From positions 1 to 64,000 of the forward strand of contig JAAYBF010000043.1 in assembly GCA_012718975.1 (NCBI GenBank): 64,000 bases of DNA. The letters are read 5' to 3'. The notes below the pieces were generated by a model, which saw only the letters and a list, made by a program, of their open reading frames with translations, made no database searches and was not told the DNA's origin. The stretch comes from Solirubrobacterales bacterium. GTDB taxonomy: Bacteria > Actinomycetota > Thermoleophilia > Solirubrobacterales > Thermoleophilaceae. The first letter of the stretch is position 1. Each line of letters opens with the position of its first letter. This document shows, piece after piece, positions 22,665 through 28,237 of this stretch. Position numbers and translations under genes: made by a program.

Positions 22665-23276
22665 GTGACGGTGCAACCGCTATCGGCGCTCGACTCGCAA
22701 GCTGGCGACAGCGACCCAGCGCCTAGCGGCGCGCCGCCGGACGGCCGGTCCGGCAGGCGCGCTAGCTCATCCGGCCGCGTCCTCGTCCTCAACGCCTCCT
22801 ACGAGCCGATCAACGTCTGCACGGTCCGCCGCGCGACGGTCCTGATCCTCAAGGACCGCGCCGAGATCCTCGAGATCGGCGACTGGCAGCTGCACGCGGA
22901 GCGGTTCGCGATGCCGCGGCCGATGGTGATCCGCCTGACGACCTACGTGCGTGTGCCGCGCGAGGCGCACCGGCGCAAGATCACCCGCCGGGCGGTCTTC
23001 GCGCGCGACCGCTGGACCTGCCAGTACTGCGGGACCGAGCGCGGCAGCCTGACCGTCGACCACGTGATCCCGCGCTCGAAGGGCGGGCCGACCGACTGGG
23101 ACAACGTCGTGACCTGCTGCGCGCCGTGCAACCGCCGCAAGGGCGACCGCCTGCCGCGCCAGGCGAACATGATCCCGCGCCAGCCGCCGGCGGCGCCCCA
23201 CTCGACGATCTTCATCCACGTCGCGGTGCCGGTCATTCCGCGGTCGTGGGAGCAGTACATCCCGCAGGCGGCATAG
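22665..23276 (+). CDS. HNH endonuclease
   Basis: FARDRWTCQYCGTERGSLTVDHVIPRSKGGPTDWDNVVTCCAPCNRRKGDR; GTG start. Confidence 0.92.
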   Translation: MTVQPLSALDSQAGDSDPAPSGAPPDGRSGRRASSSGRVLVLNASYEPINVCTVRRATVLILKDRAEILEIGDWQLHAERFAMPRPMVIRLTTYVRVPREAHRRKITRRAVFARDRWTCQYCGTERGSLTVDHVIPRSKGGPTDWDNVVTCCAPCNRRKGDRLPRQANMIPRQPPAAPHSTIFIHVAVPVIPRSWEQYIPQAA

Positions 23277-23290
23277 TCTCAGGGGGAGCG

Positions 23291-23968
23291 ATGGAGCGCA
23301 GCGGCAACACGCCCGGCGGGCAGCCGGGCAGCGACGCGGAGCCCGCGGAGGCGGAGGACCGCGGTACGGCCCAGCCGCCGGGCGGCGGCGACAAGCCGGA
23401 TAGCGAGGCCGAGCCCCCTTCGGGCGCCGGCGGTCCTGGCACCGGCGACACGCCAGCCGGCGGCGCGGGCCCCGGGGAATCCGGATCGACGCCGGACGCG
23501 ACCGGCAGCCGACCGGTCGTCGTGGCGCCCGAGCCTCCGGCGACGCGCGGCGAGCTGCGCACGCTGCGCCGCTGGCTCGCGGTCGCGGCCGTCTGGGCGC
23601 TCGCCGCGACGGCGGTCGCGATCGTCGCGCTGGTCGAGGCCCGTGACGCCAAGGAGGCCCAGACCTCCGCCGCCAACGCCAGCCAGGCCGATCTCGACCG
23701 GGTGCGCGCCCAGCTGCGCCGCGACCTGGACGAGCTGTCGGCGAAGGTCGACGCGCTGCCGACCCAGGGCGACATCGCGCGCGTCCAGGGGAGCGTCCGG
23801 CGGGCCCAGCGCGACGCGACCGCCGCCGACAATGCGGCGACGACGGCCAGCGACGACATCGACACGCTGCGCACCCGCGTGAACGACCTCGAGAGTCAGG
23901 TCGACGCGCTCGAGAGCGCCGACGCGAGCGCCAGCGCGACGGCGGGCGGCACGAGCGGCGGCGAGTAG
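23291..23968 (+). CDS. Membrane-anchored coiled-coil protein with Pro/Gly-rich N-terminus
   Basis: TM segment WLAVAAVWALAATAVAIVALVEA followed by heptad-like DLDRVRAQLRRDLDELSAKVDAL...NDLESQVDALES. Confidence 0.6.
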   Translation: MERSGNTPGGQPGSDAEPAEAEDRGTAQPPGGGDKPDSEAEPPSGAGGPGTGDTPAGGAGPGESGSTPDATGSRPVVVAPEPPATRGELRTLRRWLAVAAVWALAATAVAIVALVEARDAKEAQTSAANASQADLDRVRAQLRRDLDELSAKVDALPTQGDIARVQGSVRRAQRDATAADNAATTASDDIDTLRTRVNDLESQVDALESADASASATAGGTSGGE

Positions 23969-24001: not shown

Positions 24002-24030
24002 GAACGGGGCGCCCGTTGGGCGCCCCGTTC
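24002..24030. terminator. Perfect 13-bp stem/3-nt loop hairpin between convergent genes; candidate bidirectional terminator
   Basis: GAACGGGGCGCCC-GTT-GGGCGCCCCGTTC; only short U-tracts. Confidence 0.7.
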
Positions 24031-24078
24031 GGTGCTTCTCTGAACCAGCTCGGAGGCGGATCTGGGCGCGAGGCCCAC

Positions 24079-24228
24079 GGCCGGAGGGACCAGTCCCGGC
24101 CTCCGCCGCCGATGGTGTCCCGGTTGGACTCCGCTCGACGGGGTCCAGCGTCCGGTCTAGCGGCCGGACACCTCCAGGGTCCCGAAATTACTGTCACTCA
24201 AGTTCGGACCACCTCCTTTCTCTGGTCC
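24079..24228 (-). ncRNA. Candidate structured RNA/leader-like element downstream of gyrA: four predicted hairpins, the first displaying an extended Shine-Dalgarno sequence in its loop
   Basis: Minus-strand hairpins GGACCA-GAGAAAGGAGG-TGGTCC (24228-24206), GTCCGG-CCGCTAGA-CCGGAC (24169-24150), TGGACCCCG-TCGAG-CGGAGTCCA (24147-24125, one mismatch), GGCCGG-N11-CCGGCC (24101-24079). Confidence 0.4.
24157..24201 (-). CDS. Candidate 14-codon micro-ORF, MSDSNFGTLEVSGR (TTG start), with very strong SD
   Basis: AGAAAGGAGGTGGTCC-GAAC-TTG; stop TAG in loop of the following hairpin. Confidence 0.3.
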   Translation of the reverse strand: MSDSNFGTLEVSGR

Positions 24229-24349
24229 ACCCATTGAAGCAGACGCACGCGACGCGGCCCGCAGGTTCGGCGCCACCGCTCAGCGCGGCCGCGCGAGCCC
24301 ACGCGGCGACGCGGCGGCGGGGACGCAGCGGCGGAGGGCCCCGACGCCG

Positions 24350-27300
24350 CTACTCGTCGGAGCCCGAGCCGTCGGGTCCCGCGCCGTCGGCATCGTCCGC
24401 GACAGCCGCGTCGTCCGCGTGGTCCGGCGCGGGGGCGGCGGCCTCGGCGCCGTCCCCGGCGATCGGCTGGAGCGGGTCGGTGACCGGCCCGTCGGCGACG
24501 GCCGCGGTGTCGGCCTCGTCGTCCATGACGAGCGCGACCGCGCTGACGACGTCGTCGTCGCGGAGGTTCATCACCCGGACGCCCTGCGCTGGCCGTCCCT
24601 GGCGCGAGATGCCCTTGACGCCGGTCCGTTGCACCATCCCGGCCTGGGAGATGAAGACGAGGTCCTGGTGCTCGCGGACGATCAGCGCCCCGGCGACGCC
24701 GCCCTTCTTCTCGGTGATGTTGATCGTCTTGACGCCCATCGCGCCGCGCCCCTTGACCGGGTACTCGGCGATCGGGGTCCGCTTGCCGTAGCCGTTCTCG
24801 GTCACGACGAGCAGCTCGGTGTCGTCGCGGGCGATGTCCATCGCGAGCACGCAGTTGTCGCCGCGCGAGACGTTCATGCCGCGCACGCCACCGGTGTCGC
24901 GGCCCATCGGCCGCGCCTGGTCCTCGTTGAAGCGGGCGGCCTGGCCGGAGCGCGAGACCATGATGATGTCGTCGTCGCCGGAGGTGCGGCGCACGGCGAC
25001 GAGCTCGTCGTCGTCGCGGATCTTGATCGCGATGATCCCGTCGGCCTTGATCGGGGTGTTGTAGGCGAGGAACTCGGTCTTCTTGACCTGGCCCTGGCGG
25101 GTGGCGAAGACGAGGTACTTGCCCTCGGTGAAGTCGCGCGTGGAGAGCACCGCGCGGACGTACTCGCCCTCGCGCAGCGGCAGCAGGTTGACCAGCGCGC
25201 GTCCCTTCGCGGTGCGCGACGCCTCGGGCAGCTCGTAGACCTTCTGCCGGTAGACCTTGCCGCGGTTGGTGAAGAAGAGGAGGTAGTCGTGGGTCGAGCA
25301 GACGAAGAGGTGCTCGATGTAGTCCTCGTCCTTCATGTCCATGCCGCGGACGCCGACGCCGCCGCGGTGCTGCTTGCGGTAGGTGGCCAGCGGCAGCGAC
25401 TTGATGTAGCCGGACTTGGTGATCGAGATGACCATCTGCTGGTCGGCGATCAGGTCCTCGATGTCGATGTCGTCCTCGGAGTGGGTGATCTCCGTGCGGC
25501 GCTCGTCGCCGTAGGCGGAGCGGATCTCGGTCAGCTCCTCCTTGATCAGGTCGCGGATCCGCTGCTCGTCGCCGAGGATCTCGCGCAGCTCGCGGATCCG
25601 CTCGAGCACGTCGGCGTGCTCCTGCTTGAGCTTGTCGGCCTCGAGCGCGGTGAGGCGCTGGAGGCGCAGGTCGAGGATCGCCTGCGCCTGGATGCGGGTG
25701 AGGTCGAACTTCGACATCAGCCCGTCGCGGGCGACGTCGGGGTCGGACGAGCCGCGGATCAGGGCGATCACCGCGTCGATGTCGGTGATCGCGATCAGCA
25801 GGCCCTCGAGGATGTGGCGGCGGGCCTCCTTCTCGCGCAGCTCGTGCTTGGTGCGGCGGATCACCACGTCGCGCTGGTGCTCGACGTAGTGGCCGATCAT
25901 GTCCTTGAGGGCCAGCGTCATCGGCACGCCGTTGACGAGCGCGACGTTGTTGACGCCGAAGGTCGACTGCAGCGGCGTGTGCTTGTAGAGCTTGTTGAGG
26001 ACGACCTTGGGGATCGCGTCGCGCTTGAGCTCGATCACCAGGCGGATGCCGGACTTGTCCGACTCGTCGCGGAGATCGGAGATCTCCTTGATCTTCTCGT
26101 TCTTGACGACCTCGGCGATCTTCTTGATCAGCCCGGAGCCGTCGCCGCGGCCGTCGCCCTTGGACACCTGGTAGGGCAGCTCGGTGACGATGATCGCCTC
26201 CTTGCCCTGGCGCAGCGGCTCGATGTGCGCCTTGCCGCGCACGACGACGCGGCCGCGGCCGGTCTCGTAGGCGTCCTTGATCCCCTGCCAGCCGACGATG
26301 ATGCCGCCGGTCGGGAAGTCGGGCCCCTTGACGTGCTTCATCAGCCCGGCGGTGTCGATCGACGGGTCGTCGACGTAGGCGATCGTCGCGTCGACGGCCT
26401 CGCGCAGGTTGTGCGGCGGGATGTTCGTCGCCATCCCGACGGCGATGCCCGACGACCCGTTGACGAGCAGGTTCGGGTACCGCGCCGGCAGGACGTCCGG
26501 CTCGAGCCGCGCGTCGTCGTAGGTGGGCGAGAAGTCGACGGTGTCGCGGTCGATGTCGCGCACCATCTCCATCGCCAGCCGCGTCAGCCGCGCCTCGGTG
26601 TTGTGGCTGACGAACCCGTTGGTCAGGAACGAGTGGTCGTCGGTGTCGACGCGGATCGAGTAGACGGGCTGCACGCCGGCATCGCGAACCGACTCGACCT
26701 CGGCGTAGTAGTGGTCGCCGGTCACCAGCGGCTCGACGACGCTGCGGACCTCGGGCGAGGCGATCCGCTCCAGGATCGCCGTCCCGCCCTGCTCCCAGCG
26801 CTCGACCCGGTCGACGTTGTGGCGGTTGAGCCAGTCCCGGTCGGCCGCCGCCGACGCGCCGTCGGTTCGGATGTAGTCGGCAAGGAACGGGACGTGGTCG
26901 GAGCTGAGCGCGCGGGACGCCTGCGGGATCTCCGCCAGCTCGCGCTCGAGCTTGTCCTGCTTGACGCCGAGGAATCCGATCCGCCGGGCGAACAGCCGCG
27001 CGTCGCGCCGGTTGCTGATGACGACCTTGATCTCGCCGGCCGAGTAGCGGCACAGCCGCCCCACCACGCCGAACTCGAGCAGTAGCTCGAGCACGTCGCG
27101 GGCGAGCTGCTCGCTGTAGGTCGAGTAGGAGACCTGGATCGTCTTGCGCGGCAGCAGCGAGGACGAGCCGTCGCCGGTGAACAGCGACTGCAAGAACGCC
27201 CGCTTGAGCTCGCTCCCCCCACGCCAGACGAACTCCGGCACCATCTTGTCGCGACTCCGCTGCCCGGCGAGGGCGGCGAGCGGGCTGTCGAGCAGCCGGT

Positions 27301-28237
27301 CGAGGTTCTGGACGTCCAGCTCGTGGATCGTGCTGCCCGACGCGATCGTCCGGCTCGAGACATAGCGCGGGCCACCTACGACCCGATCGTAGGCGTCCAG
27401 CACGCGCTCGAAGTACTCGCGATCGACGTTGTTGAAGCCGGCGCGGCGCTCGGACACCCATCCCTCGGCGACGAAGGCTCCGGCCAGCACCGCGGCGGCG
27501 AGCTGGTCGTCGGTCGGCTTCTCGCCGGCCGGTCGCGGGGCGCGGGCGAGGAGGACCCGGTCACCGGGCTCGATCTCGGAGAGCAGCTTCCAGAGCAGCA
27601 TCGGAACGCCCATGACGTCGACGATGCAGAGCAGCGGGTGGTTCTCGGTCCCGGTGATCTCGTGACCGGTCTTGGTGCGCAGGCGCAGGGTCGGGTGGTC
27701 GCCGGAGTGGAACAGCTGCGACGCCCGGACCGTCTCGCCGTTGCGGTCGAGCACGTCGAGCTCGATGTCGCTGTCGGACTCGGGCCGCGCGTCCTCGACG
27801 ATCGAGTCGATCCGGACGGTCCCGGTCGGTGTCGCGACACGGGTGTCACCCGTGACGCAGTACCTCATCGCGGCCGGCGGGTCGTTGTCGATTGAGCCGA
27901 AGTTGCCCTGGCCGTCGACGAGCGGCTCGCGCATCGCGAAGGGCTGGGCGAGGCGGACGAGGGTGTCGTAGATGGCGGAGTCGCCGTGCGGGTGGAACTT
28001 CGCCATCACGTCGCCGACCGTCGAGGCGGACTTCTTGTAGGGCCGGGTCGGCCCGAGGCCGCCCTCGAACATCGCGTAGAGGACGCGGCGGTGGACCGGC
28101 TTGAGCCCGTCGCGCGCGTCGGGCAGGGCGCGCCCGACGATCACGCTCATCGCGTAGTCGAGGTAGGAGGAGCGCATCTCCTCCTCGAGCCCGCGCGGCT
28201 CGATGTTGCCGCCCGAGAGGATCTCCGAACCCGCCAT
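24350..28237 (-). CDS. gyrA: DNA gyrase subunit A, interrupted in frame by an intein
   Basis: N-term [41 protein letters not shown]; extein resumes [29 protein letters not shown]; GyrA C-terminal repeats. Confidence 0.97.
26600..27859 (-). mobile_element. GyrA intein, 420 aa, with DOD/LAGLIDADG homing-endonuclease domain
   Basis: Junctions [16 protein letters not shown] and [22 protein letters not shown] block [10 protein letters not shown] and [18 protein letters not shown]-like motifs. Confidence 0.95.

Follow-up and report, generated by a model that had tools for sequence, protein, structure and literature searches.

The small RNA Ms_IGR-5 (Rfam family RF02471) is conserved across much of the Actinomycetota, including Mycobacterium and Streptomyces. 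Its homologs are transcribed in S. lividans (PMC8079986), in S. avermitilis (PMC8780764) and, as ncMSMEG15794c, in M. smegmatis (PMC10454040), and were found by Ribo-seq to be ribosome-protected in M. abscessus and M. smegmatis (PMC4974804). The authors of the Ribo-seq study judged such ribosome-protected RNAs to be without clear evidence of translation (PMC4974804). The papers found give no function for Ms_IGR-5, and no report of a conserved ORF or pseudoknot in this RNA was found in the open-licence literature. Here we describe a related element in the window, a 64,000-nucleotide stretch of a Solirubrobacterales genome, and establish by comparison of homologs the identity of the gene, its fold, the conservation of its short ORF and the non-conservation of the encoded peptide. 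The features of the locus are collected in Table 1.

Table 1. Features of the Ms_IGR-5-like element and its surroundings in the window.
Feature	Position	Strand	Basis or remark
Small RNA gene, ~225 nt, divergent RF02471 Ms_IGR-5 homolog	24002..24226	-	full-length profile match
-10-like box TTCAAT	24233..24238	-	hexamer T[AT]NNNT seen in homologs
Helix P0, 5' strand CCAG	24222..24225	-	pairs with 24177-24174
Extended SD AGAAAGGAGGTGGTCC	24206..24221	-	bulge between helices P0 and P1
14-codon ORF, TTG start, TAG stop, MSDSNFGTLEVSGR	24157..24201	-	frame conserved in homologs
GGAC inside ORF	24179..24182	-	alternative partners: SD tail GUCC 24209-24206 (P1) or loop GUCC 24090-24087 (pseudoknot)
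Helix P0, 3' strand CUGG (codon before GAG plus one G)	24174..24177	-	RNAalifold, covariation
Second SD-like motif GAGGTG	24169..24174	-	GAGG to stop codon 11 nt
Helix P2, 3' strand GGACACC	24114..24120	-	pairs with GGUGUCC 24172-24166
Hairpin, loop with GUCC 24090-24087 as pseudoknot partner	24079..24101	-	covariation
Terminator-like hairpin, 13 bp, without U run	24002..24030	-	sequence
gyrA with intein-like insert, upstream neighbour	24350..28237	-	ORF

A divergent Ms_IGR-5 gene

The earlier note on this DNA could not tell whether the element was catalogued and had proposed an Rfam search. This search (301 nt) gave a full-length match to RF02471, covering model positions 1-184 with a score of 23.3 bits (E 0.0014; genome-wide E 0.0035), which falls short of the gathering score of 45 bits. 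RF02471 scores across 199 genomes of the phylum are graded, from 176 bits through 100, 57 and 38 down to 23, and in two of these genomes (G031 and G034) the RF02471 matches coincide with BLAST matches of the window element, providing an intermediate chain. Given graded scores and coinciding matches, yet a score below the cut-off, the element is best regarded as a divergent homolog of RF02471 and not as a formal member. In part it is already catalogued, with RF02471 as its nearest Rfam family. P0, the SD, GGAY, GAGGUG and the stop are common to the window element and to the mycobacterial and Streptomyces copies. Other Rfam candidates (STnc320, RmaA, CC2171, PyrR210 and CRISPR-DR15) scored under their own cut-offs, two of them sitting on the terminator hairpin.

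The element is single copy in its own genome, and BLAST searches recovered it from 170 of 201 relatives. When GTDB genomes were scanned with a frame-blind pattern (SD, 20-40 nt, GAGGTG, GCT), at least 120 loci emerged; the matches listed come from genera that include Mycobacterium, Streptomyces, Nocardia, Nocardioides and Actinomadura, and contain one unrelated protein gene (L178) that is not a homolog. In the phylum searches, no Ms_IGR-5-type element was found in many small-genome families or in the Corynebacterium glutamicum control genome, hence the element is dispensable in some lineages. A close look-alike comprising a promoter-like TTGACA/TACTTT, an SD, MSSCSRPREVAEC, a stop and a terminator was observed upstream of an rpmE-like gene in a MAG labelled Bryobacterales (Acidobacteriota; L116 7700-7780, minus strand). 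This is either a family member outside the Actinomycetota or a misbinned contig.

In the upstream neighbour gyrA, DPPAAMRY is followed in frame by an intein-like insert. The gyrA gene precedes the element in 29 of 30 BLAST-derived loci as well as in L056 and L060, and adjoins none of the other RF02471 matches. Neighbouring genes vary across the phylum, and conservation away from gyrA, a check that the earlier note had put forward, is indeed seen: elsewhere in the phylum the element lies a long way from gyrA. The ORF downstream of the element is convergent (23126-23968, plus strand). In most homologs (110 order-level and 120 phylum-level listed), a T[AT]NNNT hexamer ends 7-8 nt before the 5' helix, and a -35 TTG is present in 54 of the 120 phylum homologs listed, compared to 0.35 expected. 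No -35 was recognised upstream of TTCAAT in the window element itself, the transcript of which would start near 24226. The 227-nt RNA (24226-24000) folds better than shuffled sequences (z = -3.4), and further hairpins followed by the terminator-like hairpin at its 3' end are present as first described. Taken together, the absence of gyrA adjacency elsewhere, the convergent downstream ORF and the -10/-35 signals point to a distinct gene under its own promoter; judged by sequence, the window element is a stand-alone small-RNA gene and no gyrA spacer.

A conserved ORF with exchanged peptides

The 16S complement at 24221-24206, the TTG at 24201, the 14 codons and the TAG at 24159-24157 are all present as previously claimed. 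Measured against the general bacterial 16S 3' end (the assembly itself has no 16S gene), the complement contains a single G-U pair. It goes far beyond chance, the motif AGG[AG]GGTGGTCC occurring in 112 of 112 order-level homologs, one of which has a final T, and the whole 227-nt RNA folding better than shuffled sequences, as noted above. The extended SD columns are invariant in alignments A1 and A2. GAGGTG occurs in the same 112 homologs and in 30 RF02471 matches (L031-L060); the pattern search demanded this motif, while the BLAST and RF02471 sets did not, yet carry it. It is located 10-13 nt from the stop in both frame clades described below, sister families included, and with this spacing a ribosome at termination would have its P-site codon ~7-8 nt away in most homologs, the usual SD distance.

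An in-frame ORF of 11-19 codons is intact from start to stop in all but two of the ~310 homologs examined, the exceptions being a frameshift (L182) and a lost stop (L246), both in draft genomes. All 120 pattern matches listed, a set that includes L178, are open in frame 0 up to GAGGTG, against 32 and 1 for the two remaining frames, and each has an in-frame ATG, TTG, GTG or CTG at SD spacing. The stop is located at one fixed place in 119 of these (TAG 90, TGA 16, TAA 13), the exception being L178, and is kept in 111 of the 112 order-level homologs.

The order-level homologs (n = 112) start with TTG (65), CTG (9) or GTG (1) and never with ATG, the others having nearly all ATC, ATA or ACG. When both sets are considered, and leaving aside the frameshifted L182 and the wrongly anchored L045, all 40 homologs without an NTG start display ATC, ATA, ATT or ACG exactly 8 nt past GGAGG. 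Near-cognate start codons of this sort are discriminated against by IF3. The interchange of stops and the in-frame 6-nt insertions in this group suggest that the near-cognate codons are used. A weak start is not universal, as Streptomyces and Nocardioides homologs start with AUG. Homologs from one family of the class (L351, L354, L359, L360, L362 and L363) have an apparent AUA start 8 nt past the SD and an ORF of 18-19 codons. In the Solirubrobacterales organism of the window, the ORF is probably translated.

Class- and phylum-level relatives keep the SD, the GGAGGT motif and the stop, and most of them read the motif in another frame. The start-to-GAGGTG distances are 16, 19, 22, 25, 28, 37 and 40 nt, all 1 mod 3, GAGGTG-to-stop is 14 or 17 nt, and the ORF stays open. 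The peptide C-terminus is conserved within each clade; the sister-family peptides LGDHCGGGSS, VTDSSTGSGGTSG and IDSLPSKRSGHWTGGGARL are unrelated. Given the frame switch in sister families, no amino-acid sequence is conserved apart from RNA constraint, and a literature search for the peptide text RTREVA listed matches in unrelated text only. One RNA motif is read in different frames by two clades, and both keep the ORF intact from start to stop; this suggests selection on translation and not on the peptide, and argues that being translated is what selection keeps in the mini-ORF.

A conserved fold overlapping the ORF

RNAalifold analysis of 64 order-level sequences pairs the 5'-end CCAG with the CUGG just 5' of AGGUG (P0), GGUCC with GGACC, and GGUGNCG with CGNCACC. 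P0 is perfectly Watson-Crick in 230 of 259 homologs, compared to 86 ± 6 upon shuffling, with 13 sequence types that include CCAG/CUGG, CACG/CGUG, CACA/UGUG, CUUC/GAAG and CCGA/UCGG. Rare P0 breaks in the order are seen in L258 and L259, where CCAG is opposite CAGG. Across alignment A1 (33 diverse sequences), 92.8% of the P0 and P1 cells are paired (78.9 ± 1.6 shuffled), and 36 double changes occur compared to 13.9 shuffled, all 36 in P0; as homologs are related, such counts are not independent and kinship inflates the covariation figures. The A1 signal is gone when slid by one column, and fold-related changes recur in distant lineages. The SD is left as an 11-12 nt bulge between P0 and P1.

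This fold departs from the hairpins originally drawn at the 5' end. The first 6-bp hairpin is not part of the conserved fold, its outer GG (24228-24227) varying freely and lying upstream of the predicted transcript start, and its 5' strand pairs instead with CUGG 24177-24174. The ACCA/UGGU pairing of this hairpin was rejected: it is near-invariant and thus uninformative in the order, and it is missing from the mycobacterial and Streptomyces copies, which show covariation in P0 instead. Nor does the consensus fold contain the second hairpin, in whose loop the stop was drawn; GGUGNCCG is paired with CGNNCACC there.

Covariation links the GGAY motif within the ORF to the loop of the downstream GC hairpin (GGAC-GUCC 196, GGAC-AUCC 4, GGAU-AUCC 12, GGAU-GUCC 1; Fisher p = 1.7e-15). 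As this holds even where the SD tail stays GUCC (L128, L137, L168 and L201), GGAY has two alternative partners. The earlier suggestion to look for covarying stems in relatives is answered by P0 and the pseudoknot. P2 displays two covarying pairs in the 64-sequence RNAalifold analysis; phylum-wide support is moderate and weaker, and P2 as one universal helix was set aside as only partly supported at that scale.

A candidate translation-gated riboregulator

We consider it somewhat probable that the element is an independently transcribed, Ms_IGR-5-homologous small RNA working as a translation-gated riboregulator. Each conserved helix involves nucleotides that a ribosome has to cover during translation. 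Since translation and the conserved fold share nucleotides, ribosome occupancy may toggle the RNA between two states, making it a putative ribosome-operated RNA switch. The very strong SD in the bulge would recruit the 30S subunit, with the weak start codon (UUG here; CUG, AUC, AUA, AUU or ACG in relatives) leading to slow initiation. The ribosome would then read 11-19 codons and terminate where GAGGUG, 10-13 nt before the stop, could hold it, fold and ribosome occupancy being mutually exclusive in this scheme. We would guess that the RNA, once unfolded, either exposes or loses CACC/GUCC segments that lie further downstream and target other RNAs, or else has its lifetime set in this way. A bolder and more tentative proposal is that such trans-acting small RNAs form a class spanning the phylum: SD docking, reading and second-SD pausing would switch two covarying folds and so signal the level of free ribosomes, or the stringency of start-codon choice, to other genes, the ORF being selected for translation and not for its peptide. 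A conserved ORF together with a fold melted by translation would offer a concrete, testable mechanism for Ms_IGR-5, and would account for the ribosome footprints on this supposedly non-coding RNA.

Alternatively, the RNA could be a ribosome decoy, with the two SD motifs titrating or parking 30S or 70S particles and the ORF merely keeping the ribosome docked, without a switch or trans target. Two anti-SD complements that are invariant even at codon third positions, weak start codons, and a second SD that has the P-site codon at termination 7-8 nt downstream of it would all suit such a role. However, the covarying P0, the pseudoknot and the conserved 3' half are superfluous for a pure decoy, and we regard this explanation as unlikely.

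The earlier note preferred a translation-coupled or ribosome-binding RNA, or a micropeptide, over spacer. The stems covary, the ORF is conserved from start to stop and homologs occur at a distance from gyrA, all of which supports this interpretation, while the micropeptide branch is disfavoured as sister families have an entirely different peptide with the ORF still open. A product of 11-15 residues, [RGW]-T-x-E-V-x-x-[RSG], is suggested by the E-V and the stop, which the main clade conserves throughout Actinomycetota, but residue x tracks the P0 helix, T/M/I tracks GGAY pairing, N-terminal residues are free to vary, and unrelated peptides emerge from the same locus design in sister families. 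A micropeptide gene hence appears quite improbable. We give similarly little credence to an ordinary antisense small RNA in which the ORF is an unused by-product of conserved RNA motifs: its cataloguing as a small RNA and the view of the Ribo-seq authors, who see no clear evidence of translation (PMC4974804), are in line with this, but stop codons swap only among stops and frame lengths compensate. An attenuator or leader of a downstream gene, or a gyrA 3' UTR, is scarcely credible despite the position 3' of gyrA in this order and the attenuator-like short ORF and terminator, given a convergent downstream ORF that leaves no regulated gene in cis, an own promoter and neighbours that differ across the phylum, with homologs lying away from gyrA ruling out the 3' UTR.

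The proposed riboregulator can be compared to several known systems. RF02471 Ms_IGR-5 aligns over its full length with a common 5' start, SD, GAGGUG and stop region, but the Rfam entry describes a non-coding small RNA and the cmscan consensus structure is without P0 or pseudoknot. In leader-peptide attenuators and regulatory uORFs, similarly, RNA structure and the translation of a short ORF compete with each other; the element lacks a downstream cis gene, and any action would be in trans. Dual-function small RNAs such as SgrS and RNAIII also carry an ORF, with the peptide as product, whereas here the peptide is exchanged and the ORF kept. Finally, infC autoregulation employs a non-AUG, near-cognate AUU start with an SD and is IF3-sensitive; the near-cognate start and SD are shared, but here they serve a tiny ORF within a small RNA, and in some clades only.
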